Positions 32,208 to 53,462 of a stretch of 64,000 nucleotides of DNA are shown here, one piece after another. Under the pieces are notes generated by a model. The model had not been told where the DNA came from and did no database searches. It saw only the letters and a program-made list of their open reading frames with translations. The stretch lies in IMG/VR virus record IMGVR_UViG_3300037011_001068, positions 41,757-105,756 of that record; one strand, 5' to 3'. The stretch is from a virus. A program made the position numbers and the translations under genes. The number at the start of each line of letters is the position of its first letter. Position 1 is the stretch's first letter.

Positions 32208-32212
32208 TAAGC

Positions 32213-33988
32213 ATGAGCTTTTTCGAGGACTTCACGGGGTTCGGGCTGACCACGCTCGGGGCCCTGGGTGGCATGGTGCAGGAGTGGGCGCAAGGCGCGT
32301 TATTAAAAGGTCCGGAAGGATCGGATGAAGAAGAAAAGCGCAGCTCGCAAGGCTCGGATACTGCCCCCGGCGGTAAGCGAGCGGACAGCGCGGAGTCAAA
32401 TCCTGTTCCAGAGGAGAAGGCCTCAAGCGACCCAAAGGCGCTTTTTTGGGATCCCTTCGCGATTATTGAGCAGTTGGGCTACAAGGACAGGCCTTCGCAA
32501 ATCAGCTATGGAACGCTGAAAGCGATGGCCTGGAAAACCCCTATCGCGCACGCGGTCATCCAGACACGGGTGAATCAAATTTCTGGATTTAGTCATGTGC
32601 AACATGATCGGTATCAGATGGGTTTTCGGATTAAAACCCGTGAGACTGAGAAAGAGCCCACGAAGGCGGAGCGAAAATGGATCCAGCAAATGGAATCTGT
32701 GATATTGCGGACAGGTGTCACGGATCATCCGAGGGGGCGAGACGGCTTCAAAGAGTTTCTCAAAAAAGTTACCTGGGATTCCCTTGTGTACGATCAAATG
32801 TGCTTTGAAATCGTGCAGAATCGCAAAGGGCAGCCGGCGGAGTGGTATGCGGTGGACGGTGCCACCATTCGGCGGGCCGACACGGCGAGTACCTTCACGG
32901 ACGAGGATCATACGAAGGCTATCCGGTATGTGCAGATCTACGACGGACTTGTAATCGCGGAGTACACTCAGGATGAACTATGTTTCGCAATTCGGAATCC
33001 CAGGACGGATATTCGGCTTTTTGGGTATGGCATTTCTGAGCTTGAAATGCTTGTGCCGGCGGTAACCTGTATCCTCTATGCCTGGGAGTACAATCAGCGT
33101 TTTTTCAGCCAGGGGTCAGCGGCGAAGGGAATCATTAACTTCAAGGGTGCGGTTCCAGAAAAGCAACTGCAGTCTTTTCGCCGCCACTGGTATCAAATGA
33201 TTTCAGGCGTTGAAAATGCATGGAGAACGCCTGTCACAAATGCCGAGGATCTCCAGTACATTAATCTCCAGCAATCCAGCCGGGACATGGAGTACAATTC
33301 TTGGATGGATTTTTTGATCAAGGTGGTTTGCGCGATGTATGCCATGGATCCGGCAGAGCTCAATTTCAAGTACGGGAACGTTGGGCAGCGTGGAGGGCTT
33401 CAGGAGAGCTCCAATCGGGAGAAAATTACGGAGAGCAAAGAGCGGGGTCTCAGGCCGCTTCTCCGGTTCATCGCGGATGCCATCAATTTGCACCTTATCT
33501 GGCCCATCAACGAAAATTTTGAATTTGATTTTGTGGGCCTGGACGCGCAAACCAAGGATGAAATGGCCGAGCTTTCTGCAAAGCAGGTGCGCGTATATAA
33601 AACTGTGGATGAGATTCGCGCGCAGGACGATCTTCCTCCACTTCCGGATGGCCTCGGAGAAGTGCTGCTCGACCCCACGTGGTATCAGTACGCTCAGCAA
33701 AAGCAGGCGCAGGCGCAGCAAGCAGAGAACCCCCAGGGACAAATGGGGGAAGGTGAGCCAGAGGGCGGAGCTCCTGGCGGGGAGCAGGGCGGTGAAGAGC
33801 AGGGAGGGGGAATGGACTTCAAAAAGCTCCTCCAGCAGTACGGGCAAGGCGGGGGAGAGAAGCCGGAGGGCGGGAGCAAGAATGCGGTAGAGCCTGCGAA
33901 GCCTGCGGTTCCGGCTAAGGCAGCAGCTCCTCAAGTAGCGAAGAGCTTCGGGCAAGGCAAGAAAATTTTTATCGATCTAACCCTGTGA
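32213..33988 (+). CDS. Portal protein
   Basis: 591 residues from ATG (GAGG upstream; GTG 32204 possible). The central region (AMAWKTPIAHAVIQTRVNQI, AWEYNQRFFSQGSAAKGII, NSWMDFLIKVVCAMYAM, LNFKYGNVG) is typical of the HK97/SPP1-like portal superfamily. N-terminal 70 and C-terminal 90 residues are low complexity (Gln/Gly/Glu). It forms the dodecameric DNA gate at one capsid vertex and docks TerL. Confidence 0.92.
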   Translation: MSFFEDFTGFGLTTLGALGGMVQEWAQGALLKGPEGSDEEEKRSSQGSDTAPGGKRADSAESNPVPEEKASSDPKALFWDPFAIIEQLGYKDRPSQISYGTLKAMAWKTPIAHAVIQTRVNQISGFSHVQHDRYQMGFRIKTRETEKEPTKAERKWIQQMESVILRTGVTDHPRGRDGFKEFLKKVTWDSLVYDQMCFEIVQNRKGQPAEWYAVDGATIRRADTASTFTDEDHTKAIRYVQIYDGLVIAEYTQDELCFAIRNPRTDIRLFGYGISELEMLVPAVTCILYAWEYNQRFFSQGSAAKGIINFKGAVPEKQLQSFRRHWYQMISGVENAWRTPVTNAEDLQYINLQQSSRDMEYNSWMDFLIKVVCAMYAMDPAELNFKYGNVGQRGGLQESSNREKITESKERGLRPLLRFIADAINLHLIWPINENFEFDFVGLDAQTKDEMAELSAKQVRVYKTVDEIRAQDDLPPLPDGLGEVLLDPTWYQYAQQKQAQAQQAENPQGQMGEGEPEGGAPGGEQGGEEQGGGMDFKKLLQQYGQGGGEKPEGGSKNAVEPAKPAVPAKAAAPQVAKSFGQGKKIFIDLTL

Positions 33989-34395: not shown

Positions 34396-37300
34396 ATGCG
34401 GCTGCAGCTCGAGGCTACCGCGGAAGAGCTTTCCACAAAGAGCGAGGATCTCTTAGAGGCAATCCAGCAATTGGTTAGGCCTTATTCGGAAGATCTTGCC
34501 GACAAGCTTGAGAAGGCGCTTCCGGAGAAAGAAGAGAGTCTCAAATTTCCTGTGCTGCAGGAGCTAGAAAATCGAGTTGAAAACCTGTATAAAGAGCATG
34601 TGGGGGCGATGATCGAGGAGATTTTTGCTGTGCTGCAGGACAATGCTAAAAAAAGCGAAGGGGGGCTTGAGAAGGCGGGAGGTCCATTTATTGGACCCAA
34701 GGGGGGCATGTGGGCTGATCCAGAGCACACAGAGCACTGGGATCCGGATGCGAAGCATGAAAGTGGGGGCGAAAAAAAGCCTGAGCACAAAAAGGCAGAA
34801 GAGAAGGTGCCGGAATTTTATTCGGATGATGTCGCAACAAAGAAGCTAGAAGAAATCGGCGATTCTCTTTATGACATGCAGACGGATATGCATGATGTTC
34901 TCGACAAGACGGGTCTCTCTTTGCATGATTACACTGCATGGGCTTCTGTTAAAGGTAACTTGAACAAGATGAAGTTTCTCTTGTCCAAGTACAAGAAGCA
35001 AATCAGCTATGGTTGGGGAGAAGAGGAATACCACAAACTTGGCCTCGGGCAAGCCCCCCTGGGTTCCGAGGTAAAGCCATTTTATCAGCAGAATTACGGG
35101 TCTCTTTCTCTTCCGGTGAACGGATTTATTCAGAAGCCTGCATTCAAAGATTATCTTGCTTACCACCAGGCGCTCAAGTCCAAAGGGTTTGTAAGCTACG
35201 ATGGAACCGCCTGGTTCATTTATAAGAAGCGTCTTGCTGATTTTCCTTGGAAAGAATACGTCCAGAAAATGGCGGAATTTGGCATCAAGGTGCCGGAGAA
35301 GATGCCAGAGCCGCCACCACAAAAAGAATTCCCGAAGGATCCAGCAATTGGGCTCTCGGTCAGTGGAAGCACGGTTGATCAAGTTATCGCGGGAATATTG
35401 CACAAGCAGGTGCATGACAAGCTCGCGGTCAAACGAAGCAAGGATGGAAAATTCTCTTTCTACTACCCTTACACCCCAGCGCTGAATGATTTATTTTCCA
35501 ATAAAGCTGGGAATCTCACGGGAATCACGAAGTACAATCCAGAAAATCATGCACGAGAGACTTTCCAGCTCGAGCTTGTAGAAGAGGCGATTGAGAAGAT
35601 CAAGAAGCTTGCTCCTGAGCTAGAAATTGTGACTGAAGGCGTCTCTGAAGCGCGAATCGAGAAGGATGCGGAAATTGCTGAGCTCCAGAAGCCTATCCCG
35701 GAGGTAGCGAAGCTCATCAATCCAAAATATAAGCTGTATCCCTACCAGAATGAATGCGTGCGATTTCTGGACAAGGCAAAGGGGAATGCGCTTATCGGAG
35801 ATGAGATGGGGCTCGGGAAGACGCTCGAGACGCTCGCGTGGTGTGCAAAAAACGGAAAAAAGGTTGTGGTAGTTACTCCCCGAGTCGTTCGGCGGACGTG
35901 GCTCCAAGAATCCGTGAAATTCTTTCCTGGGTATTTCAAGGGCGTTGAGCTTGTCTCTTCCGACATCAAGAAGGGGAAGGTTCCGGACCTTTCCGATGCG
36001 AATATAGTGACTGTTAATTATGAGAGCCTCAGCAAGTTTCTTCCGCAGATTCAAGCTGCGGGGTTTGATACTATTATAGTTGATGAATCTCATCGCATGA
36101 AGAACCCAAAAGCAAAGGCGACGCAATCTATTCAGGCGGTCGCCAAGCTTCCGACCATGAAGCATCGCATTTTGCTCTCTGGTACAGCCATCAAGAACAA
36201 AAAGGAGGAGCTTTATACTCAGTTGGGTCTGGTCGCTCCCGGGAAGTTTTCTAAGGAGGCGCTCAAGTACGGGACGATCGGCGGTCTCTGGATGGACATG
36301 CGCTCTGTCTACTTGGCCCGGCAGAAGAGCCTTGTCCTGAAGGATCTCCCGGAAAAAACCACTCAGATCATTGAGCACCCCTCGAAAAAAGGAGTACCGG
36401 ATCTAGATGAGCTGGCAGATCTTTCTCCTCAGGAAAAGATCGGTCGATTTTCTCAAATGAAAGCGGAGATTGCGGTTCATAAGGCGCCAGAGACGCTTGA
36501 ATTCGTGAAGGAGATTCTGGAGAGCTCGGATTCAAAGGTCGTTCTCTTCTCCGATTCGGTGGAAGCGGCACACTACCTGGCTGATCAACTGGGGGACGTG
36601 GCGCTCCTCCACACGGGGGAGATGAGCCTCGACAAGCAGGAGGCGCTCAAAAAGGAATTTGAGCGGCAGGATGAGGAGGGGAATTTCATCTCTCCGAAGC
36701 GCGTTTTTGTCGCGACGCGGCAGTCTCTCGCGGTAGGGGCGACGTTGGTTGCGGCCGATAAGGTGGTGTTCAACGATTTGCCCTGGACCACCGCGGATAT
36801 CCGGCAGGCGGAGGATCGGTGTCATCGGATCGGCCAGAAAAATGCGGTGACGGTTTATTGGTCAAAGCTCGGGGGCAACGCATTTGACGAGAACATCATT
36901 AGTATCCTGAAGAGGAAGTTTGAGCTCTCCAAGAAGGTGAACCAAGGCCAACAACTGACCAAGGAAGAAGTCGCCTGGCAAAATAAGTCCATCACACTGA
37001 ACGAGGTGCTCGCGCAGTACCAGGGCGACAAGGCCGGGCCCGGGAAGACTTCTTCGCTGGGTCCTTCCCTCCCAGAATTGGGAGAACAGGGGGAGATTCT
37101 TCCCCCAGTCAAGGAGAAGGCCTTGGAGGCGCTTCCCGTGCCCGTGGAGGAGCCTAAGCTTTCAAAGCCGGGGGTGAATACCCCCCAGAAGATGGAAGCT
37201 CCCAAAGAGGCTCCTAAGGCTCCTCCGGCGATTTCTGTGGGGACGCTTGATCCTCTGGTGCTGGGAGCTGGTGGGAAGATCGAAGAGAGCAAGATCAATC

Positions 37301-37806
37301 CAGCAAATTATGACATTAAAATACCCAAGGGAAAGCCCGAGGTGATGGCAGAAATTCAGGATTCTTTCGAGCTGCATGCAAAGGTGCGGGAAGACGGGGA
37401 GCACTTGATCGTCACGGTTCCTAAAAGTGCCATCATCAAGTTTTTGACAGGATCGGATATTCTGAAGGCGCTTTTAGAGGAGGGCTCAGATGTCGTCTAC
37501 TCTAGCGGAGGAACATGGGCTGACAGCGGAGGAGTCGAATCAGGGGAAGCTCCTCAATCTGAAGGGGCAACCGATCACGCGGGAGATGATCAAGAAAGCG
37601 ATTCAGCAAGCGCTGGAAGCGGACAAGGTTTTTCTGATGTCACAAAGCAGGTTTTCGATCAAGAAAACCTAGCTTATAAGCGGACCAAGAAAGTGCTCAT
37701 AAAACTTGGCTGGAAAGAGACCGATTTTTTGGACGGTGGTCCTCTTTATGGGTGGAGCACGAACCAGTTGATTGACCTTGTGCGGGAGAGTAGGAATGCA
37801 AATTGA
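34396..37806 (+). CDS. SNF2-family helicase with virion-type N-terminus
   Basis: 1136 residues from ATG. An N-terminal helical region is followed at about 94-118 by the tag module (G-G-P-F-I-G-P-K-G-G-M-W, H-W-D-P-D). From about 450 a full SNF2 motor: LIGDEMGLGKT near 467, VVTPRVVRRTW, DESHRMKNP near 562, LLSGTAIKN, and HRIGQKN near 810. The nearest architecture is single-subunit SMARCAL1-like. C-terminal 250 residues are Pro/Lys/Glu-rich with two small domains. Its place between portal and MuF genes and the shared tag suggest it travels in the virion and acts on DNA early after injection. Confidence 0.88.
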   Translation: MRLQLEATAEELSTKSEDLLEAIQQLVRPYSEDLADKLEKALPEKEESLKFPVLQELENRVENLYKEHVGAMIEEIFAVLQDNAKKSEGGLEKAGGPFIGPKGGMWADPEHTEHWDPDAKHESGGEKKPEHKKAEEKVPEFYSDDVATKKLEEIGDSLYDMQTDMHDVLDKTGLSLHDYTAWASVKGNLNKMKFLLSKYKKQISYGWGEEEYHKLGLGQAPLGSEVKPFYQQNYGSLSLPVNGFIQKPAFKDYLAYHQALKSKGFVSYDGTAWFIYKKRLADFPWKEYVQKMAEFGIKVPEKMPEPPPQKEFPKDPAIGLSVSGSTVDQVIAGILHKQVHDKLAVKRSKDGKFSFYYPYTPALNDLFSNKAGNLTGITKYNPENHARETFQLELVEEAIEKIKKLAPELEIVTEGVSEARIEKDAEIAELQKPIPEVAKLINPKYKLYPYQNECVRFLDKAKGNALIGDEMGLGKTLETLAWCAKNGKKVVVVTPRVVRRTWLQESVKFFPGYFKGVELVSSDIKKGKVPDLSDANIVTVNYESLSKFLPQIQAAGFDTIIVDESHRMKNPKAKATQSIQAVAKLPTMKHRILLSGTAIKNKKEELYTQLGLVAPGKFSKEALKYGTIGGLWMDMRSVYLARQKSLVLKDLPEKTTQIIEHPSKKGVPDLDELADLSPQEKIGRFSQMKAEIAVHKAPETLEFVKEILESSDSKVVLFSDSVEAAHYLADQLGDVALLHTGEMSLDKQEALKKEFERQDEEGNFISPKRVFVATRQSLAVGATLVAADKVVFNDLPWTTADIRQAEDRCHRIGQKNAVTVYWSKLGGNAFDENIISILKRKFELSKKVNQGQQLTKEEVAWQNKSITLNEVLAQYQGDKAGPGKTSSLGPSLPELGEQGEILPPVKEKALEALPVPVEEPKLSKPGVNTPQKMEAPKEAPKAPPAISVGTLDPLVLGAGGKIEESKINPANYDIKIPKGKPEVMAEIQDSFELHAKVREDGEHLIVTVPKSAIIKFLTGSDILKALLEEGSDVVYSSGGTWADSGGVESGEAPQSEGATDHAGDDQESDSASAGSGQGFSDVTKQVFDQENLAYKRTKKVLIKLGWKETDFLDGGPLYGWSTNQLIDLVRESRNAN

Positions 37807-38014: not shown

Positions 38015-38186
38015 GCTTCACGCTGAATGCCCCCTTTGTGGTGGGGCGCCTGTTTTTTGGAGCCCGTGTCGATGTTTCGTTCTCGTTTGCGAGCAAGGCC
38101 ATTATTGGTACGGGTCAGATTATGGTCGGAAATTTGAGTTTCATGGACCCTTAGGGCGAGAGGAGCCTGAGCATGTACATGGATGA
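38007..38186 (+). CDS. Zinc-ribbon miniprotein, paralogue of the next
   Basis: 59 residues, start TTG with GGAG close upstream. CPLCGG ... CRCFVLVCEQGHYWYGS then YGRKFEFHG. The next gene has the same arrangement, so this is a tandem duplication. Likely zinc ribbon. Confidence 0.55.
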   Translation: MGELHAECPLCGGAPVFWSPCRCFVLVCEQGHYWYGSDYGRKFEFHGPLGREEPEHVHG

Positions 38187-38379
38187 GCCAGGATTCCAGA
38201 GTACATGCCCCCAATGCGGGGGAGTGGCTGTCACGCGATGCCAATGCCCTTGCGCGATTTCTATCTGCTCAGAGGGACACACATGGTACGCGAGCGCGTG
38301 GGGAAGAAAATATCGAGTGCATGGTAGCGCTGAAAAAGCGGAAAAGTCTATCGAGGTGCCGGATGCTCCTAAGTCCTAG
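38173..38379 (+). CDS. Zinc-ribbon miniprotein, paralogue of the previous
   Basis: 68 residues from ATG with GAGAGGAG upstream. CPQCGG ... CQCPCAISICSEGHTWYAS then WGRKYRVHG, matching its neighbour in spacing. Overlaps the MuF gene start. Confidence 0.65.
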   Translation: MYMDEPGFQSTCPQCGGVAVTRCQCPCAISICSEGHTWYASAWGRKYRVHGSAEKAEKSIEVPDAPKS

Positions 38380-41300
38380 ACAGCTTCAAGAGATCCAGAA
38401 AATAATTCAGACCTACCATGAGGCGTTCATCGTGAACGCGATATCAGTTGAAGCGGTGGCTCCAGAAATTTTGGAGAAGCTCAAGAAAAAGGGTCTCGTG
38501 CATGCCACGGTGAAATCGATCGAGGAGGCGTATCTTTATGGGCAGCTCCTCGCGCTACTCGAGAACCCCAAGGTCGCCAAAATGTCTTACGAGGATTTTA
38601 AAAAGTATCTCCGGAAGCACCCTATTCCGCTGACGCCGGTGGAGCGGCAGGGGATTCAAATGGCTATCCAGAGTGCGGGGCAATATTGTCGCGGCTTGGG
38701 GAACAAGGTCAACCTTGCGACCGGGGCGGTGCTCATCGAGGCAGATCAAAAGCTCCGGGCGAAGATGGTGGGAGTCATCCAGAACAAGGTCGCTGAGAAC
38801 ATCATGAAGCGGCAAACCATCCAAGATCTTCGGAGTGACCTCGGGTGGGCGACGGGGGATTGGGCCCGAGACTTTCATCGAATCGCGGTGACCGAGAAGC
38901 AAGCGGCCATGCTCGAGGGGCAGGCGAATCACATCCAGAAAAGGCATGGCCCCGAGGCTTGGATTGCAAAGAGACCCATGCCGGGCGCTTGCGAGCGGTG
39001 CAAGGCCTTGTACCTCGGGCCCGATAGCCATCCGAGGATTTTCAAGCTCACCACCCTGGCGGCGCACGGGACAAACGCGGGCCGGAAGGCTTCGGAGTGG
39101 CTTCCGACCGTGGGCCCGATTCATCCAAACTGCCAATGCGTTATGACGCGTGTCCCGCAGGGGTGGGGGTTCAATGAGGAGGGGCAACTGATCCCGGGCG
39201 GGGCCGGCGGGAAGCATTATGAGGATGAGGGGAAGCTCCAGCTTGCTATGCTCCGCGAAGCTGATCTCCGAAAATCCTATCAATTCGATCGAGATTTCGA
39301 TTTTCAGGGAATCCCCATCGTAATCGAGAACCATGTTGGGAGCATGAGAACCTGGCGTGCTGCGAACGGGGAGACCGGGACTACTGAGATGCTCCATGCC
39401 TACGGCTACATCCCGGGGACCACCGGGGCAGACCAGGATGAGATTGACGTATTTCTGGGGCCGGACCCGGAGGCGGAATATGCTTTTCTCGTCCACCAGC
39501 AGAACCCGGAGAATGGTCTTTACGATGAAGAGAAGGTGATGCTCGGCTTCTCGAACCAGGAGCTCGCTGAGGAGGCTTATCGCCAGCACTACACCCACCC
39601 GGATACCTACCTCCTGACCGTGAGCCCGATGGACATTGAAGCCTTCAAGCGTTGGATTCTCATGACCCGCCCGGTGGAGGGGTTCCAGAAATCAGGGCTT
39701 CGGCTTGTTCTCCCGCTCGAGAAGGCCAGAGGGCCTTTCATCGGTCCTCGGGGCGGTCTATGGGCGGATCCAGAGCACAAGGAGCATTGGGATCCAGAAG
39801 CACAGAAAAATGTAAGCACAGAAGAAAAGGAATCTGGAAATCCAGAAAAAAAGGAAGAAATGGACGAAAAGGAAACGTGGAAGATAACGGCAGTTGAAGA
39901 CCTTCGCCCTATCGATTGGGTGTCGGGGAAGAGAGCGCCTTTGCACGCTGGAGAAGGGAACACTTGCGACCGATGCGGGAAAGAGCACGCGATAATTTAC
40001 CACATGCAATCGAGCTCTGGGAAAGTGCTGGCAGTGGGGAGCGGGTGTGGCCCGAGGCTTGTCGGCGGCGCGGGGTTAATCGACAAGGAGAGCAAGAAGA
40101 AAGCGGAGAAAGATCTCAAAGCGCGGGAAGTGCGGATCGCAGAGAACATGGTTTCCGGATGGTTCCTTCGGGGCCTGCAGGAGCTCGATAAGGTGGCCCC
40201 ATTCTCAAAGCTCACCTTGAAAGAAATCCCAGTGGATGCGGATGCTATCAGCTTCCACCTGAACAAGATCAAAACCCGATGGATAGCATTAGATGAAGCG
40301 GGGAAAGAGTGGGCTAGGCAGCGGGGGATAGTGCAGACGTCTGAAGATATCGAAGGGCTTGCAAGTGAAGAGAGAATTCGTTTTGAAGTGACGAGGGTGC
40401 TTGATACGTTGAAAGTGCCTGTTACTAAGGAGTGGAAATGGGATATCGAATTCCCATTTGAGTCTCCTGGGTATTGGGTAAGAGACCGTCTGCACGAGCG
40501 GCTTACAAGCTACCTTGCGCGCCGTCTTCTTTCTCCGCTTCATCCAGGCCTTCGCCTTCTTGCGAAGCACGATTTATTTACAGCGGAGAAGCTCCAGGAG
40601 ATGAAGGAACGCGCCATGGAATTTGAGGCTTTCCCTCAAGGGAGACCCCTTGAGAAGGGTGGAACAGATTCTATGATCAGCGTGGGGGACAGCCAGTGGG
40701 AAAATCGGAACGTAGTTTCTGGACACGCGGTTAATTTTATCATGCGGTCTCCAAAGAACCACAAGAAAACCGATCCTATCACCATGCAGGACTACTTTCC
40801 GACGCTTGATGAGTTTGCCCATGAGCACATGGAAAACGAGATGTGGAGGCGAGATCCAAAGGTGTACGAGGTTGAGGAGCCCGTGCCTCGGCAAGTGCGG
40901 CCGGTGAAAGTGACCTCGGGGCAGAAGCCCGAGACAGAGGAAGAGGTGACTCGTCGAAAAAAGAAGCTCATTCAGCGGTTCGTCATGAATATGGGGCGGC
41001 CGAAAAATACTCCCCTTGAAAAAGCTCTTCCCCCGACCATCAAGAAAATCGGTGTTCATGGCGGAAAAATCATTGGCTGGGGCCGTGGAATGAAACCCAT
41101 TTATTTGGGGCAAGGAGGGCAGGATAAGCGAAGCGCTGTTCATACTTGGGCTGAATCTCATGGGGGAAAAGTTTCTCCTGTTCGGGGGCAGGAAGAGCAT
41201 CCAGATCCAGAAGCGCTGGTCATCAAGGTTCCCCCTCATAAAGTTCAGCACCTCGAGCAATTCAAAGAGGAGCATGGAATTCCTGGGTCCACTTTTGGGG

Positions 41301-42715
41301 GTGAGACTTATCGGATGCTGGTGGTTCCCAAGGAGCATTGGATAGCAGCCAGCGAGAAGCTCGAGGGAGGAATCCCTGTGGCTTCAGAATTTACTCCGAG
41401 CGCACCTTTACCGGCAGCGCAAGAAATTGCAGAAGACGGGACGGTAGTATTCGCAGATCTTTCCACGGTAAAGCAGCTTTCGATCTTGCAAGGCGCTTCC
41501 AAGGCATCTTTGAAGGTGCCTTCAAAGGCGAAAGATGTGATCCAGCAGGGCCAGGTGGTGGAAGCTATTTTTCATGATGGGAGTTCCGGGGAAGGCAAAG
41601 TAGTGGGAACGGATCCTCGAGGAGATTTTTTGGTTCAGCGTAATGGCGTGAAGCTTGCCCGTAAAAGTAATGTGAAGCGAAAGGGCAAAGAGGAGTACAA
41701 ATCGGTTTATGAGGGCGTGAGCGAGAAAAACATTTTTAAGCCTTCTCCACGGCAACAAACGCTCCTTCGGCAGTTGTTGACCGAAGAAAAAGTCGTCGGT
41801 GAGCATGTGGCTCAAGAGTACCTTGATTGGCTGTGGAACCACGGGCACGAAGCGTTTGTCGTCGGCGGCGTTGTGCGGGATATGTTGCACGGGACAATTT
41901 CTGGATCAGACTTGAGCGATAAGCAGGTGTTCGAGAGCATGAAGGACGTGGATCTCGTAACGTCGGCGAGCCCACCGGAGATAAAAAGGATGTTCGAGGA
42001 GATCAATAAAGAATTTGGAGATCTTTCTGTGACCGTGGATGCTCATCCTTGGGGCGTTTATTGCCATCAAGGTGCGGGCCTTGGGTTGGATGTGAGCTCC
42101 ATGGTACATTCCGGGACCAATGATTTTCATCGTGCGAATATAAAAGAACACGCGCTTTATCCCAACGAAAAAATCAAAATCGAACCCCCCTCGATTTTCG
42201 ATCACAAGCTGCTCAAGGATATGATGCGTCGGGATGCGGCATGCAATTCCCTTTATTACGATGCTCAGAATGAGGTGATCGTGGATCCTTCGGGGCATGG
42301 AGTGATGGACGCTGAAAATGGGGTAGCAAGGATTGAGGGGTCTAGGGAAGATCATCAGGACAATCGACCAATTCTTTTTCGTTTCTTGAAGCTCATCGAA
42401 AAGGGAGCTATCCCGGATAAAAAGTCTTGGGATATGGCTCGTGAGGTTTTCAAAGATCAAATGATTCATATGACCCCTTTGCAGAGAGCTCATATTATTT
42501 ATCAGGTATGGGGTAAAAAAGAAGGCGTGACTGCCAAAGATGCGCTTGAGAAATGCATCAAGGCTTGTAAGGCAGGTGGATGCTATGTGCTCTTCCGAGA
42601 ATTTTTTAAAAATGATGCTTTCACGCTTCTCATTCTTGCGGAGAAAATTAAATCATATCAAGATGCCAAAGAAGAGGTGCGTGCTAGAGTGAAGAAAGCG
42701 GTGATGCATGTTTAA
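38363..42715 (+). CDS. MuF head protein fused to pyrophosphatase-like and tRNA nucleotidyltransferase-like domains
   Basis: 1450 residues from ATG. About 90-266 is a phage Mu F-type head-morphogenesis domain with C210/C213 (ACERCKALYLG) and C257/C259 (HPNCQC). About 306-433 matches the inorganic pyrophosphatase-like MuF-associated domain (GADQDEIDVFLGPD, KVMLGFSNQE). A tag module lies near 456, then a Cys region (CDRCGKEH) and an IIGWGRGMKPIYLG segment. About 1150-1350 matches the head domain of class II CCA-adding enzymes/poly(A) polymerases: VVGGVVRDML, D1195-V-D1197, MRRDAACNSLYYD. MuF proteins are minor head proteins that can carry toxins; here the cargo would be an RNA-modifying enzyme. 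Confidence 0.82.
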   Translation: MLLSPRQLQEIQKIIQTYHEAFIVNAISVEAVAPEILEKLKKKGLVHATVKSIEEAYLYGQLLALLENPKVAKMSYEDFKKYLRKHPIPLTPVERQGIQMAIQSAGQYCRGLGNKVNLATGAVLIEADQKLRAKMVGVIQNKVAENIMKRQTIQDLRSDLGWATGDWARDFHRIAVTEKQAAMLEGQANHIQKRHGPEAWIAKRPMPGACERCKALYLGPDSHPRIFKLTTLAAHGTNAGRKASEWLPTVGPIHPNCQCVMTRVPQGWGFNEEGQLIPGGAGGKHYEDEGKLQLAMLREADLRKSYQFDRDFDFQGIPIVIENHVGSMRTWRAANGETGTTEMLHAYGYIPGTTGADQDEIDVFLGPDPEAEYAFLVHQQNPENGLYDEEKVMLGFSNQELAEEAYRQHYTHPDTYLLTVSPMDIEAFKRWILMTRPVEGFQKSGLRLVLPLEKARGPFIGPRGGLWADPEHKEHWDPEAQKNVSTEEKESGNPEKKEEMDEKETWKITAVEDLRPIDWVSGKRAPLHAGEGNTCDRCGKEHAIIYHMQSSSGKVLAVGSGCGPRLVGGAGLIDKESKKKAEKDLKAREVRIAENMVSGWFLRGLQELDKVAPFSKLTLKEIPVDADAISFHLNKIKTRWIALDEAGKEWARQRGIVQTSEDIEGLASEERIRFEVTRVLDTLKVPVTKEWKWDIEFPFESPGYWVRDRLHERLTSYLARRLLSPLHPGLRLLAKHDLFTAEKLQEMKERAMEFEAFPQGRPLEKGGTDSMISVGDSQWENRNVVSGHAVNFIMRSPKNHKKTDPITMQDYFPTLDEFAHEHMENEMWRRDPKVYEVEEPVPRQVRPVKVTSGQKPETEEEVTRRKKKLIQRFVMNMGRPKNTPLEKALPPTIKKIGVHGGKIIGWGRGMKPIYLGQGGQDKRSAVHTWAESHGGKVSPVRGQEEHPDPEALVIKVPPHKVQHLEQFKEEHGIPGSTFGGETYRMLVVPKEHWIAASEKLEGGIPVASEFTPSAPLPAAQEIAEDGTVVFADLSTVKQLSILQGASKASLKVPSKAKDVIQQGQVVEAIFHDGSSGEGKVVGTDPRGDFLVQRNGVKLARKSNVKRKGKEEYKSVYEGVSEKNIFKPSPRQQTLLRQLLTEEKVVGEHVAQEYLDWLWNHGHEAFVVGGVVRDMLHGTISGSDLSDKQVFESMKDVDLVTSASPPEIKRMFEEINKEFGDLSVTVDAHPWGVYCHQGAGLGLDVSSMVHSGTNDFHRANIKEHALYPNEKIKIEPPSIFDHKLLKDMMRRDAACNSLYYDAQNEVIVDPSGHGVMDAENGVARIEGSREDHQDNRPILFRFLKLIEKGAIPDKKSWDMAREVFKDQMIHMTPLQRAHIIYQVWGKKEGVTAKDALEKCIKACKAGGCYVLFREFFKNDAFTLLILAEKIKSYQDAKEEVRARVKKAVMHV

Positions 42716-43166: not shown

Positions 43167-46100
43167 ATGCTCGCTACACAGCTCACGGCTCCTAAATGGG
43201 TCCATACGTCTTTTCAGAAGGCTGGCGTGAAAACCAAGCCCATGAAACTCGGGTTGGGAAGCTGGAAAGGCTTGAGCATCATTGCCATTGGGCCCAAAGG
43301 GGGCCGTATCATTGGGTATGGGCGTTTCCACAAGGCCATTTATGCTGGTAGTGCTATCGCCGAGCATTTGGTCGCTTTGCGAGAAGAGGCGGCTGCTTCC
43401 AAAAAGTGGACCCCCAGCACAGAAATCCAGAAATTAGTGGAGTGGCTTACTGAGCTCGGGATTGACGGGAAGGCCTTTAAGGATCGGGTGGAGGTGGAGG
43501 AGGACGCTGGAAAGCTTCTCGGTCAGTCTTTCAGTGTTTACGGAAATACTGAACCTGGAAAGAAGCTCAGCTTCAAGGTAGCAGAGCTCCTCCCGCATAT
43601 CGGTGAGCCCTTGAAGCCCGCTGAGAATGAAGCGCTCTCCTACGCGGCCGAGGTGGCGAGTGGGCAGTTCCAGGAGGAGAAGCTCTTCCCGGATCTGAAG
43701 ACGCTTGAGCCCGTGCCTCTTGAGGGGGTGTATGCGAAATATGCTGGGAGCCACGGGAACAAGCTCTTTCGGGATCCAGAGGAAAGGCTCTGGATTTTCA
43801 AGGCCGCGAACCCCATTATCGCTCGAGCAGAGGAGGCAGCTAATCGGGTTGGGCGACACATCCTCGGGGACAAGTTTCCGCCCGCCAAGTACGTCCAGCT
43901 CGGAGGCAAGGATGGTGTCTTGATCGGGGAAATGCTCGGCGAGGTATGGCAGGAATCGAGCGCCATGCATTCTCACCCCCCTCTGAATCTTCTCAAAGAA
44001 CATCGGCTTGAAGTGCTCCAGCATGAAATTCTGGATTGGTTGCTCGCGAACCACGATAGTCACGCCGGCCAGTTCCTTTCGCATGAAGGGGAGCTCATTG
44101 CAATCGACAAAGGGCAGGCCTGGAAATGGATCGGTGAGGACACTTTTCATCCTGGGTTCAAGGGGCAGAATCCAAGCGATCCGATTTACAAGAAATTTTG
44201 GGAGCAGGTGAAGTCTGGGAAGATTTCGAGCGAAGGTTTCGTGGAGGCGGCGCTCGAGGTTATTGAGCGATGGCGGCAGATCCCTGTAGAGCAGTTTCGC
44301 TCGATCGTCGCTCCTTACGTGGTTACCTTGGCAGGGGGGACGCACAAGGAGCCCGAAGAAATCGCTAAGAAGCTTGAGGCTCGCTTCCTGTCCTTGGCGA
44401 AGGACGTGGAGGGGTTTTTGAGCGGGCAGCTCGGGCAAGTAGTCTCCTTCGGGGGCGTGCAGCCTATCGAGCCTACGACCGAGACTCTGCCTTCCCCTCT
44501 GAAGCTTGCACCCTCTCCCAAAGAGCCGGAATTGCCCATTCAAGCGATTCCAAAGCCCCCCCTGGCTGGACCCCTCTCCGTGGCAATAGAGCCCTCCTCT
44601 GCCCTTTCCGTGGCTTCTCAGTGGCCCATCACGAAAGGCAACGAAAAGGGGAAGGTGACTGTGACTTCTCCGGGCGTGAAGCCTCCTGCGAGCTGGCCGG
44701 CGGGAATCCCGGGGGCAGGGTTTATGCAGGACATCGTTTACAAAAAGGAGGCCTACAAGCTTTCCATTTTCGAGAAAGGCGGGAAGGTATCCTTCTTGAT
44801 TCAGTACCCTGACGGCACGTCGAATACGTGGCCTTCCATCAATCAGGCAGGGGATTCTTTGTACCTGTACGCGAATAAGCTTCCCATTTCCATGGGGGCC
44901 AAGGATAAAAAAGAGAAGGGGATTTCTCTGGGTTCCAAGGTCTTTCGGTTCGAGCAATTCAAGGCGGAGCTCGAGGCTGCTTATGGAATGCCTTCCGTGG
45001 CGGTGGAGAGCCCCCCTTCCAAGGCGAAAAGCATAAAGCCGCTTGCGGAGTCGATTACGGTCCAGACCCCCAAAGAGCTTGAGCAGGCGAATATCATTGA
45101 ACCGGGGCAAAAGAATCTCCCCTTTTATGAAGTGGCAGAGAAACTTCCCGCGTGGGAAGAAGTCGATCCTTCGGTGATGCCTCCAGAGGTACAGGAATTG
45201 ATCGATCAAATGGATGCGAGTATAACCTCTTATCCTGATGTCTGGGATGCAGCGATCTTTCCTGGAAAAGTGGTTAAGATTTTATTGAATACTACGGGAA
45301 AGCCAGGGTTCTTAATTGGGGATGTAAAGCAAGGAAAGCCTGTTTATCATATTTATAAGCAAGATCCCCAGGGGAACTATACGATAGGCTCTCCGATGAA
45401 CGCGGAAATTTACGATACTGGCTTTGATTTGTATTCAAAGCTTGGATCGAAAGGGCTAGAAGAGGAACCTTATGATCCGTTGAAGGTGCTTATGGAAGGA
45501 CCAAAGGCAGGGAAGGAAAAACCTTCGGAAGATAATTTTGAGACTATGCCGGAAAAAGAAGCGCAGCCGATCCAATTTTCTGGAAAGACGGCAAATGAAC
45601 ACATGAAGGTCGCGGTAGCGTTACCGGCCGGGACGATTATAACGCTCACTCCAGCAAAATGGCCGGATGTACCTACAGTGAATTTCGTCAAGAATGAAAA
45701 GGGATCGTGGCACCCTTTTGATACGGCAACGCAGGCTCCACTGGAAAAAGAAATTTTTTCATCCAATATGATTGGAGTAATTGTCAATAGCATGCTCAAG
45801 AATGGCGGCTTGGTTGTGCATTCTATGGGTGCTATCAAGAAGCCCGCACCCAGCAACTTTGAGACTATGCCTGAATCTGTGTATCAGCCAAAAGCTGGAG
45901 TGCCGAAGCTTGCAGATATAGAGTCGGCGGAAGAGGGGGCGGAGATCAAGTTACAAACAGAAGGGCAGGATGCTCCCACGGTTTTTACTAAGACCCAGGG
46001 AGAGTGGTGGGTATTGAATCCTGGAGCCAATAAGCATGAGAAGGTGACTTTTTCGGAGGTGTTCCTAGCGGATGTTTTGGACACGGCGAGTCAGAATTCC

Positions 46101-49100
46101 AATATTACAGTCAAAGGAATGAGTTTAGGGCAGGAAAAGAAGCCTGCTCCGGATAACTTTGAGACCATGCCGGAAGGGTTGCCTACTGAATTTAAACCAA
46201 ATAAATGGAAAAATTCTCAAAAAATAGTAAATGCTCTTTTGCTCGCTCCTCTTGATACTAAGCTTGAAACGAGTAAGTATATCGCTACGCTTGTTCCTAC
46301 ACTGGGTGGAGGAAATGTTTGGTATATAAAATATAAAGATGCTGCTTACGGAGAGGATGTTACAAGTTCCCATTCTTCGATGGCATGGGATATTTCTATT
46401 CTTAAAGAACCTATGAAAGTTATTCTTCCGGAAAAAGTAGAAGAGCTTCCTGAATTGAAGACCATGGAAGAAAAACAAAATTTTTGGAAAGATCAACCAT
46501 GGGGTGGAACGTTGGAAGTTTGGTCTGTAAATCCTTCTGGAGATCTTTTTTCTTATGCACCGCTCGGGACCGCTATTGCCGCTCCAAAGCCGGGGGATGC
46601 TTCAGGCATGGCTTTAACAATTTGGCATAAAGGTAAAGGTGACCACTGGTATACTATAGGTTATGCAATAAGCTCACAGGCACTTTCTACACTACTCCAA
46701 CCTATTGTAAAAGCAAAAAAGAAGGCTCTCATCCTAAAAGGAGCTCCTGCTATTGCTGGCCTTATTAAAGATTGGCCCAATATTCAGAACATCACGCAAG
46801 ACATTCCAATCAAGAATCCCTCGAAAATATTTCCAGGATTTTTGAGTGTAGCTCCTTTGGGAGCTCGCCTTACTTCTTATAAGCTCTCTACTGGCGGGAA
46901 AGTGGAGAGTCAGATGTTTGTAAAAGAAGATGGGGAAAATTGGAAAAATATCTTTACGCAAGATATTATAAATAACTATTTTGTAACTCAGCTCATGAAT
47001 ACGCAGGATGAAGTTTTTATTTATCTAGGAGGTATTCCTGGGAGCACTCCAAAGCCAACAATAAAAAAACTTGTACCTAAGCTCGTGCATGCCAAGGATG
47101 CAATAAAAATGCATGAGGCAATCAAAGCTTCAGGTGGTACGCTCAAGATCAAACCTAACTCCACTGATTCAACGGTGGCCTATGTTTGTTTGGACAACGT
47201 GATAGAGGGAGATGCGGCAAAAATACTGAATTCTGCGCTTTTGGAATTAAACCTTTCCCAGCATGTCTTGAATTTTCAGCAGTATCCTAAAACGAATAAA
47301 TTCGGTGCTTTTGTGGCGATTCCTTTTTCCCATCTAGAAAATCCCGTGGAGATACAGGTGGAGGAGGGTGAACAAGTTCCTTCTGAACCGCCTGATCAAG
47401 TGGAGGAAAAGCCCCAGAAAAAAAAGCCTAAGAAGCTCTCCAAAAAAGAAATCCAGAAAATGGCTGCAGCAAAGCAAAAAATCGAAGAGCAGAAGGTATG
47501 GGCAATAGCGCACCCGACGGTGAAGGATCCAGAAACCTTCCTTCTCCTCGCGCACTTCCAGAAGCACATGGATAAGTGGTTTTCTGAAAGTCCCTGGTAT
47601 GCGCGGGTGGAAAACGAAGGGGAGACCATCTTCCTGCAGCCGAAGAGCTTCCCTGAAGATTTTCCGGCGGTCATGAAAAAGCAGTTCCCTCTTGCGGAAC
47701 AGGTGGAGACCATCCATGGGCCCATGATGCGGGTCTCTCTCCAGTCGCTCCGGGATCGCTATCCCGAGGCGCTCCCCGTAAAAGGCCCGGATGGTAAGCT
47801 CTATCCTGTGGGGACCACTTTCCAGACTGAAAAGACTTCGGTGACCGTGGGGGACCTTTTAAAAACCGAGCCTGGATTCCATAGCATGGTCCCGCATACC
47901 TCTATGCCGGATTACATGGTGCTCAAAGTGGCTGGAACGGGAGCGAGCCAAAAAGAGCAGCTACATGCTATCGTCCAGAAATTTGGGTTACACCCACTTT
48001 TCACAGAGCCGAAACAAACATCGAGCTCCTGGATGCATTATTTTCTCAAGAAAGAGATCGATAATTCATGGAAAGAGGAGGAGAAGCTCGTGGTGCTCCC
48101 TGGGGAATCCCCCTCTCCCCTTCGCCTGGCTCCTTTGCCCTCGGGGACGACCACCACGGAGCATTGGGGGGAAGTGGGGGATAATCGTGCGGAGCTCGGG
48201 TTGTTGGAAGCTGTGAAAATTCCTTTGTACGGACACGTAATTCGGATTGGCAAACCGGGGATACTGACAGATTTTCAGGTGAACATCCGAAAAGTGAAGA
48301 CCCTTTCAGGGGATCTTGTTTACGAGGTGACAGGAGATCTTCTCGAGTTCAAGGCTCAGTCCAGCAAATTGAATCCTACCTCTAGTATTCCTCTGACTTC
48401 GGCAGCTTCGCAATTGTTCGCGCCTTTGGGAAAATTAAAGACCATTGAATACGATGCAGAGACCGGGGTGCATGACGAAAGCAAGAGCCCTGGGGAGATC
48501 ATGAGCCTCTCTGGTTTTCAAGGAACCGTGCGTGATGGAAAAACCGTGGTCCAGGTGATTCAAGATCCTTCTCAGCAAACCATGAATGGCACTTTCAAGG
48601 TGCGAATCCCGGTGGGGGATAATGTGGAGGAAGCACTCGGCGAAGCTTTTGAAGCGATGGGTTACAACGCCGCGGAGGCACTCTCCCCTATCGATGAAAA
48701 AAGCGATCGGATTTTTAAAAAGTGGTCTATCCTTCGCTCGACATTAGGACCATTGGCTTTTGGGCAGTCCGATGCTGCTATACCACGGAAGCAGCGGCAT
48801 GATGAGAAGTACCTGGATACACAACTTGATAAACTCGGCGTCCAGAAATTGGTTCCTACCGCGAAGGTACAGCGGATTTTTCAAAGCAAAGTCACGGTAA
48901 CGGTAGCGGGTGAAGAGCATTTCAAGGAGCATTGGTCTTGCCCTTATGTGGGAACAAAATTTCCTTCCGTCATAATTCAGCTCGCGCAGGGTGCTGGGTG
49001 GGCAAGTCGAAAAGAGCGTTATCTGAAGGGTGTAGATACGGATGGAAAAAGTAAAGGTGAGGATTTTCAGACTGGCGGGGCTGCGGGTGTTTTTTGCCGT

Positions 49101-49517
49101 ATCGCTGGGTCACAGGCAAAGATCAATCCAGCGTATGCTTATAATGTAGTATTCCATCCTCGCTTGTTTAGACGAACAGACTGGTATCACTATAATGATG
49201 ATCATTTTGGCGTGATTGCTCCTAATACCTTCAACACCATGGGTCCGCAGAAGGGAAGGTTGAGTGCAGGACCTATCACTAGCGTAGGAAATGAGATCAT
49301 CTTTCAAGGGGGTATGGACATTCGAGATATCGTAGGAATCATGTGTACGAGCCCTGAATCGGCAACTTCTTTGAAAGAGAAGCTTATCAGCATGGGAATA
49401 ACAGAGATCAATGGGGCTTCATTAGATGCTGCAATTAAGTACATTCCGCCGTATGAAACAACAGGCAGCAAATTTTTAAAGGTATTTCACATCAAAGAAG
49501 ATCCAGAGGAGGCATGA
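43167..49517 (+). CDS. Giant virion protein with kinase-like domain and beta repeats
   Basis: 2116 residues from ATG. An N-terminal tag-like part (GPKGGRIIGYGRFHKAIYAG) is followed at about 185-320 by a HipA/PI3K-like kinase pattern: GSHGNKLFRDPEERLWIFKAA, then N295-H-D297-S-H299-A-G (catalytic loop) and IDKGQ with D314 (DFG-like). About 490-1400 is a string of beta-rich modules; NFETMPE occurs at residues 790, 897 and 997, marking units of about 100 residues. The final 300 residues form another domain (RTDWYHYNDDHFGVIAPN). The 45.2-47.3 kb part is AT-richer. Likely packaged and delivered; the kinase substrate is unknown. Confidence 0.65.
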   Translation: MLATQLTAPKWVHTSFQKAGVKTKPMKLGLGSWKGLSIIAIGPKGGRIIGYGRFHKAIYAGSAIAEHLVALREEAAASKKWTPSTEIQKLVEWLTELGIDGKAFKDRVEVEEDAGKLLGQSFSVYGNTEPGKKLSFKVAELLPHIGEPLKPAENEALSYAAEVASGQFQEEKLFPDLKTLEPVPLEGVYAKYAGSHGNKLFRDPEERLWIFKAANPIIARAEEAANRVGRHILGDKFPPAKYVQLGGKDGVLIGEMLGEVWQESSAMHSHPPLNLLKEHRLEVLQHEILDWLLANHDSHAGQFLSHEGELIAIDKGQAWKWIGEDTFHPGFKGQNPSDPIYKKFWEQVKSGKISSEGFVEAALEVIERWRQIPVEQFRSIVAPYVVTLAGGTHKEPEEIAKKLEARFLSLAKDVEGFLSGQLGQVVSFGGVQPIEPTTETLPSPLKLAPSPKEPELPIQAIPKPPLAGPLSVAIEPSSALSVASQWPITKGNEKGKVTVTSPGVKPPASWPAGIPGAGFMQDIVYKKEAYKLSIFEKGGKVSFLIQYPDGTSNTWPSINQAGDSLYLYANKLPISMGAKDKKEKGISLGSKVFRFEQFKAELEAAYGMPSVAVESPPSKAKSIKPLAESITVQTPKELEQANIIEPGQKNLPFYEVAEKLPAWEEVDPSVMPPEVQELIDQMDASITSYPDVWDAAIFPGKVVKILLNTTGKPGFLIGDVKQGKPVYHIYKQDPQGNYTIGSPMNAEIYDTGFDLYSKLGSKGLEEEPYDPLKVLMEGPKAGKEKPSEDNFETMPEKEAQPIQFSGKTANEHMKVAVALPAGTIITLTPAKWPDVPTVNFVKNEKGSWHPFDTATQAPLEKEIFSSNMIGVIVNSMLKNGGLVVHSMGAIKKPAPSNFETMPESVYQPKAGVPKLADIESAEEGAEIKLQTEGQDAPTVFTKTQGEWWVLNPGANKHEKVTFSEVFLADVLDTASQNSNITVKGMSLGQEKKPAPDNFETMPEGLPTEFKPNKWKNSQKIVNALLLAPLDTKLETSKYIATLVPTLGGGNVWYIKYKDAAYGEDVTSSHSSMAWDISILKEPMKVILPEKVEELPELKTMEEKQNFWKDQPWGGTLEVWSVNPSGDLFSYAPLGTAIAAPKPGDASGMALTIWHKGKGDHWYTIGYAISSQALSTLLQPIVKAKKKALILKGAPAIAGLIKDWPNIQNITQDIPIKNPSKIFPGFLSVAPLGARLTSYKLSTGGKVESQMFVKEDGENWKNIFTQDIINNYFVTQLMNTQDEVFIYLGGIPGSTPKPTIKKLVPKLVHAKDAIKMHEAIKASGGTLKIKPNSTDSTVAYVCLDNVIEGDAAKILNSALLELNLSQHVLNFQQYPKTNKFGAFVAIPFSHLENPVEIQVEEGEQVPSEPPDQVEEKPQKKKPKKLSKKEIQKMAAAKQKIEEQKVWAIAHPTVKDPETFLLLAHFQKHMDKWFSESPWYARVENEGETIFLQPKSFPEDFPAVMKKQFPLAEQVETIHGPMMRVSLQSLRDRYPEALPVKGPDGKLYPVGTTFQTEKTSVTVGDLLKTEPGFHSMVPHTSMPDYMVLKVAGTGASQKEQLHAIVQKFGLHPLFTEPKQTSSSWMHYFLKKEIDNSWKEEEKLVVLPGESPSPLRLAPLPSGTTTTEHWGEVGDNRAELGLLEAVKIPLYGHVIRIGKPGILTDFQVNIRKVKTLSGDLVYEVTGDLLEFKAQSSKLNPTSSIPLTSAASQLFAPLGKLKTIEYDAETGVHDESKSPGEIMSLSGFQGTVRDGKTVVQVIQDPSQQTMNGTFKVRIPVGDNVEEALGEAFEAMGYNAAEALSPIDEKSDRIFKKWSILRSTLGPLAFGQSDAAIPRKQRHDEKYLDTQLDKLGVQKLVPTAKVQRIFQSKVTVTVAGEEHFKEHWSCPYVGTKFPSVIIQLAQGAGWASRKERYLKGVDTDGKSKGEDFQTGGAAGVFCRIAGSQAKINPAYAYNVVFHPRLFRRTDWYHYNDDHFGVIAPNTFNTMGPQKGRLSAGPITSVGNEIIFQGGMDIRDIVGIMCTSPESATSLKEKLISMGITEINGASLDAAIKYIPPYETTGSKFLKVFHIKEDPEEA

Positions 49518-50080: not shown

Positions 50081-50189
50081 AAGGGCAGATTAAGGAATAG
50101 CTGTACGGTTGGCCCGGGTAGGATCCGTGAGGGATCGGTAGGGGCAAGCGATAGTATCGTTTGCCCCTTTGCCGTTTCGAGGTGGAAAA

Positions 50190-51047
50190 ATGGAAGGTGA
50201 GCTCCCGTTCGATGTCGAATTTCCCTTCTCCGTTTTTGAAAAAGCGGATGAAGAGCCAGGGAAGAGAAAACGAATCGGCGGTATTGCCTCGATCGAGACC
50301 CGGGACCGGCAGGAGGAGACCGTTCTTCAGAGAGGTTTGGATTTTTCAGATTTCGCGAAAAATGGTTGGTTCAACGATAATCACTCCAAAGATACCGCGG
50401 GAGTCGTAGGATATCCCGATGGATCTACTGAATTTTTTCGCAAAGGTCAGCGATTACCTAGCGGAGAAATCGCGAAAGCTTCCGGGCATTGGGTGGAGGG
50501 TTATTTGCTGGATACTCCGCGGGCCAATGCGATCTGGGAGCTCGGAAAAGCACTCCAGAAAACGCAACGTCGGCTTGGTCTTTCGGTGGAGGGAAAAATT
50601 CTGCAAAGAACCGGGCCACAGTTAAAGACGATTGCGAAGGCCCTGGTCCGAAATGTGGCTATCACGAATTGCCCCGTAAATACTTCCGCGCGCATGGAAA
50701 TTCTGGCTAAGAGCCTTAAAGCCGCGGAGCAATGCGAAAGCGATCTGGCCAAGACCCTGGGTATGGGTGTTCCAGCAATTGGGGCTGGGGGCGGAGTGGT
50801 TCCACCGGCCAGCATGGGGCCTCAAACGGGTATGGGTGCAGGGCAGGTGATTGCCCGGGAATCGCTCGAGAGCAAGCAGCACCCGCCAAAGAAGATCGGA
50901 AAGAAAAAAAAGATTAAATTCCGGAAGTCTTTTTCGCATATCGAAGCGATCCATTGGCTTCGCGCTCAACTTCCGCATGCTTCGGCGGAACAAATCGAGC
51001 GCTTGCTAGAAACCACCCGGCGACTAAAAAGCGCTGGAAAACTGTAA
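50190..51047 (+). CDS. Prohead maturation protease
   Basis: 285 residues from ATG. N-terminal pattern RIGGIASIETRDRQEETVLQ, then the catalytic His region NDNHSKD (H65) and GLSVEGKI with the probable catalytic Ser (S132), as in XkdF/HK97-type serine proteases of the herpes-assemblin fold. It cleaves scaffold and other head proteins during maturation. Next to scaffold and capsid genes. The Lys-rich C-terminus may bind partners. Confidence 0.8.
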   Translation: MEGELPFDVEFPFSVFEKADEEPGKRKRIGGIASIETRDRQEETVLQRGLDFSDFAKNGWFNDNHSKDTAGVVGYPDGSTEFFRKGQRLPSGEIAKASGHWVEGYLLDTPRANAIWELGKALQKTQRRLGLSVEGKILQRTGPQLKTIAKALVRNVAITNCPVNTSARMEILAKSLKAAEQCESDLAKTLGMGVPAIGAGGGVVPPASMGPQTGMGAGQVIARESLESKQHPPKKIGKKKKIKFRKSFSHIEAIHWLRAQLPHASAEQIERLLETTRRLKSAGKL

Positions 51048-52028: not shown

Positions 52029-53462
52029 ATGTTTGGGAATGCAAACATGGTGTCCTGGAAGGACTACGAGGGAGTAGAAGGATTCCAGGTTGGATCTCAG
52101 CAAGAAGTCGATCAGCTCAACAAAGCTCTGGCGGCCGGCCAAAGCATCAATCCCCCGGGGAGTGCCACCGCGGGAGATGGTTTCAGTTTACGCGTGGAAA
52201 GTTTGGAACGTACACTTAAGGTGACTACGTTCAAAATGGAACACATCAAATTCTGGAAACAAATTCCCAAGCTCGCAGCTTGGAACACAGTGGAAGAACA
52301 CAATGCTCTGCATTCATACGGTCAAAATCCTGATGCCGGGTTTATCGCGGAAGGCGATCTTCCGGGTGAAGACGACTCGACCTATGAAAGGCAGTTCGCA
52401 ATCATCAAGTTTTTGGGGACCACACGCCGAGTGACTCACCCCATGAGCTTGATCAAGCCGGCTCACGGAAATGTCATTTCAATGGAAACCGTGAATGGCA
52501 CGATCCACTTGCTGCGGATCCTAGAACGGGCGCTTTTCTTTGGTGATAGCGCACTGTGCGCTTTGCAGTTCGATGGATATGCGAAACAGCTTCAGGCGAA
52601 GAGCAACGTGATCGATCTTCGAGGACAACCGCTGAGTGAAGACGTTCTCACCGATTCCTGCTTGACCGCGTTTGATGCCCCCAATTACGGCATGATCACT
52701 GATATCTATCTCAATCCGAAGGTCAAAGCAGACCTCGTGAAGACGTTCTTCCCGAAGGAACGCCATCCAACCAACGTTGGGGACATGAGCAAAGTCGGCT
52801 TGGACATTAAGGGGTTCACTTCCCCCGCCGGCGATGTGATGTTTCAGCCGGATGTGTTCATTACGGATGGTGGCGGCGTGACCACAGCAGTCGGCGACGC
52901 AACCAAACGGCCAGCAACCCCGACCATCTCCACTCCTTGCACAACCCCTGGTCCGGAGGCTCTCTCGAAATTTGGCGCCTTAGATGCTGGCGATTATCGT
53001 CTCCAGATCCAGGCCTGCAATCGCTATGGGCGAAGCGCCCCGGTAGCGGTGGATGCAGGCGCGGTGACCATCGGAGCAGCCGAAAAATTCACCTTCGGCG
53101 CGACCCCCGGTGGATCTACCACGGTTGAATGGTGGGAGCTTTTCCGAACAAAAAAAAACGGCGCGCTGGGGACCGAGCGTTTGGTTCTCCGGGTCGCTAA
53201 TGCGGCCGGCGCAGCGGAAAGTATCATCTCTGAATACAACGACCAGATCCCCGGGTGCTACTATGGCTTTGGGTTCCAGCTCAATCTGGAAAACTTGTCA
53301 TTCAAGCAACTTGCGCCTATGGTAAAAATACCACTGGCGACAATAGACAGCAGTATCAGGTGGATGCAGCTTCTCTATGGGGTGCCTGTTCTTTACACTC
53401 CTGGAAAGAACATCCTTTTCAAGAACATAGGGCGGGCTCTCGGCTACGTCGGCAACCCCTGA
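52029..53462 (+). CDS. Major capsid protein, HK97 fold, with Ig-like insertion
   Basis: 477 residues from ATG. HK97-fold features: an N-terminal arm, KFWKQIPKLAAWNTVEEHN (E-loop region), ALFFGDSALCALQFDGY and PNYGMITDIYLNPKVKADL (P-domain). Residues about 295-400 (PGPEALSKFGALDAGDYRLQI ... WELFRTKK) look like an inserted fibronectin/Ig-type beta sandwich, which would display on the capsid surface. The end LLYGVPVLYTPGK belongs to the core again. Confidence 0.85.
   Translation: MFGNANMVSWKDYEGVEGFQVGSQQEVDQLNKALAAGQSINPPGSATAGDGFSLRVESLERTLKVTTFKMEHIKFWKQIPKLAAWNTVEEHNALHSYGQNPDAGFIAEGDLPGEDDSTYERQFAIIKFLGTTRRVTHPMSLIKPAHGNVISMETVNGTIHLLRILERALFFGDSALCALQFDGYAKQLQAKSNVIDLRGQPLSEDVLTDSCLTAFDAPNYGMITDIYLNPKVKADLVKTFFPKERHPTNVGDMSKVGLDIKGFTSPAGDVMFQPDVFITDGGGVTTAVGDATKRPATPTISTPCTTPGPEALSKFGALDAGDYRLQIQACNRYGRSAPVAVDAGAVTIGAAEKFTFGATPGGSTTVEWWELFRTKKNGALGTERLVLRVANAAGAAESIISEYNDQIPGCYYGFGFQLNLENLSFKQLAPMVKIPLATIDSSIRWMQLLYGVPVLYTPGKNILFKNIGRALGYVGNP

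Follow-up and report, generated by a model that had tools for sequence, protein, structure and literature searches.

A 2116-residue protein encoded among the head genes of a virus (IMG/VR record IMGVR_UViG_3300037011_001068) combines a HipA/CtkA-like kinase domain with what looks like a DarT-like ADP-ribosyltransferase (ART) fold at its C-terminus, and this kinase-ART pair looks like a conserved unit. The stretch analysed here, referred to as the window, comprises 64,000 nucleotides (bases 41,757-105,756 of a record of 105,756 bases), and coordinates below are those of the window. We consider it probable that the protein is a virion-carried two-enzyme effector with an ADP-ribosylglycohydrolase as its de-modifying partner. 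A preliminary description of the open reading frame (ORF) had recognised the kinase-like motifs and a set of beta repeats, but was incomplete in overlooking the second, ART-like enzyme domain. Searches of the full protein with Pfam, PHROG and NCBIfam models gave no match, and its parts are as follows.

43167-49517, + strand: ORF with ATG start, 2116-residue protein with kinase, beta repeats and DarT-like ART
43275-43349, + strand: IGPKGGRIIGYGRFHKAIYAG module, residues 37-61, common to the upstream head protein (BLASTP E 0.015, 56% over 25 residues; motif scan)
43707-44441, + strand: HipA/CtkA-like kinase domain, residues 181-425 (AlphaFold2, Foldseek, Pfam matches of homologues)
43746-43802, + strand: glycine-rich loop G194-SHG and ATP lysine K212 (G194 in 37/40 homologues, H196 in 35/40, K212 in 40/40)
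44049-44072, + strand: catalytic loop N295-H-D297-S-H-A-G-Q302 (D297 in 40/40; position 302 is N in 20, Q in 16, A in 4)
44103-44117, + strand: metal-binding I-D314-K-G-Q317 (D314 in 40/40, K315 in 39/40, Q317 in 39/40)
44481-44612, + strand: disordered proline-rich linker, residues 439-482 (predicted local distance difference test, pLDDT, below 50)
44619-44981, + strand: beta-rich domain, residues 485-605 (AlphaFold2)
45159-45446, + strand: beta-rich domain, residues 665-760 (AlphaFold2)
45534-46436, + strand: tandem repeats of about 100 residues, marked by NFETMPE at residues 790, 897 and 997 (repeat hidden Markov model, HMM)
48237-48881, + strand: C-terminal region, residues 1691-1905, conserved only in close relatives
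48894-49436, + strand: DarT-like ART fold, residues 1910-2090 (AlphaFold2, Foldseek), with E2043 at 49293-49295

The three motifs that had been read as HipA/PI3K-like kinase loops, GSHGNKLFRD at residue 194, NHDSHAG at 295 and IDKGQ at 313, all lie where they had been placed, and the kinase reading held: AlphaFold2 modelled a kinase fold over residues 181-425, with pLDDT mostly 86-98, and the metal-binding aspartate D314 is present. The best Foldseek match of the model was CtkA of H. pylori (3akl; E 2.7e-4, probability 1.00, TMt 0.52), and HipA (3dnv) was matched together with many other HipA entries, most with probabilities of 0.97-1.00; these E-values are modest because the query was a 790-residue multidomain model. 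Pfam searches of 51 kinase homologues matched HipA_C in 30 (best 5.3e-9), PI3_PI4_kinase in 17, Fam20C in 9 and also ABC1, whereas the window protein itself had no HipA_C match. Across 40 non-redundant homologous kinase domains there is no substitution at K212, D290, W291, D297, D314, K320 or R406, and residue 222 is acidic throughout (E or D), so the motifs are not chance occurrences. Fold, homologues and catalytic residues support residues 181-425 as a kinase domain with a complete catalytic set, for which phosphotransfer is predicted. In one relative (L087:6492-8855), a single protein carries two tandem kinase domains.

At the other end of the protein, the assignment of residues 1910-2090 as a DarT-like ART is made at the level of the modelled fold (predicted template modelling score, pTM, 0.86 for the C-terminal model). 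Foldseek matched this model to DarT1 (8baq; E 5e-3, probability 1.00, TMt 0.55), and DarT structures made up three of the top five matches, with 7omu and 7yk3 weaker (probabilities 0.57 and 0.28). Within the domain D1966, G1970, G1971, D2012, G2015 and E2043 are invariant, the last being kept in 23 of 23 relatives. Members of this family form the very end of most proteins that bear the kinase, and also of the head morphogenesis protein of Pseudanabaena phage Pan1.

The linkage of the two domains emerges from the relatives. After unsuccessful single-sequence scans of viral contigs, the family was opened by tblastn against 50,697 phage records, in which residues 194-429 resembled mycobacteriophage proteins annotated as 'minor capsid and ADP-ribosyltransferase fusion' (E 3e-14). 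Relatives were gathered with a kinase-only alignment, which brought 111 from viral contigs, 80 of them kept, and 20 from genomes; because this query contained only the kinase, the finding of ARTs at their C-termini is unselected. A DarT-like domain stands at the end of 62 of the 86 3'-complete kinase ORFs. The remaining 24, judged by representatives, end in a PF03496 or PHROG ART (PF03496 in L055, E 5e-16, and in 9 of 10 in a further set; a PHROG ART in L025), except for L105 and L102, the latter stopping soon after the kinase. The L105 protein (L105:883-3873), from Bacteriovoracaceae, has a signal-peptide-like start and a kinase domain with no recognisable ART, and is possibly a non-phage use of the kinase. 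On a quick kinase tree the ART type switches at least 2-3 times, and the kinase-ART pairing therefore outlives replacement of the ART. Some relatives are single polypeptides of the form MuF-kinase-ART or VG15-kinase-ART, while on three actinobacterial plasmids with conjugation-type genes (Streptomyces, Mycolicibacterium) the kinase and a DarT-like ART (E 2e-27 to 2e-32) are neighbouring genes. On the Streptomyces plasmids the very next gene after that for the kinase has the DarT-like domain at its end; in M. fortuitum the ART gene is split into two overlapping ORFs, of which the first has a leader and the second the DarT-like domain. The paired plasmid ORFs (L118-L120) start with a common leader, of the form MGxxxKxxHxSxxxxP (MGTxSKSSHESYAVxP type), which is a candidate transfer signal.

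The proposed partner enzyme is encoded at a distance from the kinase-ART gene.

8912-9871, + strand: ADP-ribosylglycohydrolase (PF03747, E 9e-61), proposed as de-modifying partner from co-occurrence

Such a glycohydrolase is found in 43 of the 50,697 phage records versus 8 of the 12 that bear the kinase. The naive Fisher p of 7e-23 for this co-occurrence is inflated because the records are related, and becomes about 2e-6 when they are counted as 2 of 3 lineages. Overall it was found in 10 of 31 tested kinase-bearing records, many of the others being fragments, and in Streptomyces NBC_01216 it lies about 6 kb downstream of the ART gene.

The setting of the ORF bears on how its product would reach a cell. 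The head genes run in the order terminase, 2068-residue polyvalent protein, portal, helicase, minor-head-like protein, 2116-residue ORF, protease, a weak match to a scaffold protein, and major capsid.

22372-24933, + strand: terminase large subunit
26001-32207, + strand: polyvalent protein, 2068 residues, containing ddrB-ParB and LPD1 domains, immediately before the portal gene
32204-33988, + strand: portal protein
34396-37806: helicase
38183-42715, + strand: upstream head protein, minor-head/MuF-like with inorganic pyrophosphatase (InPase) and poly(A)-polymerase-head nucleotidyltransferase domains
50169-51047, + strand: head maturation protease (phrog_1028, E 1e-34)
52029-53462, + strand: major capsid protein (phrog_752, E 1e-80)

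The product is thus a large multi-enzyme-domain protein encoded among head genes, which is how polyvalent or head-delivered effectors are recognised. That it is packaged in the head is indirectly supported by this position and by the homologues fused to MuF or VG15 head domains. The preliminary description had suggested that a packaged kinase might modify a host factor at entry. Under the mechanism proposed here, the effector would be produced when the capsid genes are expressed, become enclosed in the head and enter the cell together with the injected DNA. The N-terminal domain would then phosphorylate a protein, and the C-terminal domain would move ADP-ribose from nicotinamide adenine dinucleotide (NAD+) onto a host macromolecule, the two activities jointly helping to seize or disarm the cell that has just been infected. 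The phage's own glycohydrolase may strip the ADP-ribose later, or shield the cell during virion production. More tentatively, and at somewhat less than even likelihood, the kinase, ART and glycohydrolase may form a mobile delivery module common to tailed phages and the conjugative plasmids of actinobacteria. In such a module the HipA-like kinase would be coupled in function to an exchangeable ART, the two modifications would act jointly on recipient-cell targets at entry and the glycohydrolase would be a built-in antidote.

Between the two enzymes lie small beta domains of about 80-100 residues and variable number, which separate an N-terminal part (18-725) from a C-terminal one (1310-2090), both of them conserved, and may serve as a spacer. 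The repeats noted in the preliminary description belong to a genuine tandem family of this size, and NFETMPE does occur at the three positions given; however, it is private to the window protein. Being unconserved in relatives, it was rejected as a hallmark of the repeats: the family core is 'LPxGT...Y.K...W', and NFETMPE falls in linkers between copies. The repeat HMM found two clear copies (about 811-848 and 908-958) and about three marginal ones in the window protein, 5-9 strong copies in each of six close relatives and none in composition shuffles. The region is AT-richer, as had been stated, with a guanine-plus-cytosine fraction of 0.42 at 45,750-47,250 versus 0.55 over the kinase.

Several observations weigh against a two-enzyme effector with a glycohydrolase partner. 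At a position where asparagine is usual in kinases the window protein carries Q302, a substitution seen in 16 of the 40 homologues. The DarT model PF14487 is unmatched by the ART domain, and the profile-profile probability against DarT is 5.8%; with both comparisons non-significant, membership of the DarT family is not claimed, although that alignment does set the conserved NE, with E2043, on the catalytic AE of DarT. The first-strand ART histidine, common among distant relatives, is not present in close ones. In addition, Onyinye-type phages lack the glycohydrolase, as do the large contigs G010, G016, G020, G028 and W01.

The fold matches lend themselves to a different target for the ART, which might modify nucleic acid like DarT and not protein, thereby blocking the DNA or RNA of the host or marking phage DNA on its way in. 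This we regard as unlikely, though it survives best among the alternatives. DNA-modifying DarT enzymes are the best fold matches, and the conserved glutamate and polar residues fit such an activity, but PF03496-type ARTs, which are usually protein modifiers, fill the same slot in relatives. Moreover, the partner is a PF03747 glycohydrolase, a family in which the enzymes characterised have mostly ADP-ribosylated proteins as their substrates (PMC9503650), and no macro domain (the DarG partner) was found in G000, NADAR not having been searched for.

That the kinase almost always comes with an ART, of either of two families and either fused to it or encoded next to it, and that the ART has repeatedly been replaced could also indicate that the kinase mainly regulates its attached ART, phosphorylating the ART or itself and so keeping the effector inactive while virions are produced or switching it on after entry, with the ART alone hitting a host target. 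A precedent exists in Legionella, where the kinase-fold enzyme SidJ regulates the ART-bearing SidE proteins. On the other hand, no relative of HipA or CtkA is known to us as a regulator of an ART, a protective role is already available in the glycohydrolase, and a spacer that is long and variable gives no hint of a fixed contact, which leaves this explanation rather improbable. It is very improbable that catalysis has been lost from the domains, leaving a protein with a structural role inside the head or in ejection, as Q302, the missing histidine and a size and repeats typical of structural proteins might suggest, since K212, E/D222, D297 and D314 are kept in 40/40 homologues and E2043 in 23/23, at identities down to about 20-25%.

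The two-enzyme effector resembles several known systems. As in DraT-DraG, the ART is accompanied by a PF03747 enzyme that could reverse the modification, and Tre1-Tri1 is another ART-glycohydrolase pair; what sets the present case apart from both is that its ART shares a head-cluster protein with a kinase, to which it is fused, and that the glycohydrolase gene lies some way off. The kinase shares with HipA (E. coli) and CtkA (H. pylori) the fold, the ATP lysine, the catalytic aspartate with Asn/Gln five residues on and the metal-binding aspartate, but sits inside a phage head-cluster protein of more than 2000 residues, paired with an ART and with no HipB-like partner noted. Like the polyvalent-protein kinases (Iyer et al. 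2017, PMC5512222), it belongs to large multidomain phage or conjugative proteins thought to be delivered with DNA. Those kinases have lost the C-lobe, and in them an insert parts the conserved His from the conserved Asp (PMC5512222); membership of that family was rejected, as C-lobe helices are modelled at residues 340-422 and nothing separates H296 from D297. MuF-VIP2/Alt ART fusions and T4 Alt (PMC9503650, PMC7302621) are likewise head-associated or injected ARTs, and mycobacteriophage relatives of the window protein are annotated as MuF-ART fusions; the kinase is unannotated there, and the window ART is DarT-like. With the DNA ADP-ribosyltransferases DarT1 and DarT2 (PMC11543638) the domain shares its fold and probably a conserved glutamate in an equivalent C-terminal strand, but it differs in having no significant sequence match, no macro-domain partner and a phage head context. 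PHROG 6577, with no assigned function, covers the MuF-kinase part of Desulfobacterota-type relatives and does not reach the window protein. Sequence searches of the PDB gave weak or spurious matches only (XkdS/sheath initiator, enolase, antibody, peptidylarginine deiminase).

Other features of the window accompany these genes. A module of the form GPFIGPKGGxWADPEHxxHWDP (variant IGPKGGRIIGYG) occurs six times on the + strand (28644, 28989, 34693, 39743, 41051 and 43290) and, in a scan of the window, is confined to four large non-canonical head-cluster proteins (2068, 1136, 1510 and 2116 residues); it is possibly a common packaging or processing tag. The terminase large subunit (22372-24933, + strand) contains an intein with a LAGLIDADG domain at residues of about 144-387. 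An Acb2/Tad1 hairpin domain (PF24729, E 2e-7) is encoded at 15269-15964 (+ strand), and its product is possibly a cyclic-nucleotide sponge against CBASS/Thoeris.

The polyvalent/MuF kind of effector is already known, and what appears to be new is the pairing of a HipA-like kinase with an ART. Actinobacteriophage MuF-ART fusions are annotated, with no kinase mentioned in the annotations or papers found, and a search of the literature on MuF-ART fusions and polyvalent kinases, outside which most subscription-journal papers and preprints fell, found no report of the pairing or of this kinase. If the reading is true, a widespread two-enzyme effector would be revealed, with the residues to mutate already named, and it could be tested in the M. 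smegmatis phages Onyinye and Phrappuccino. The role of injected phage ARTs, and how producer cells survive them, would then become directly testable.
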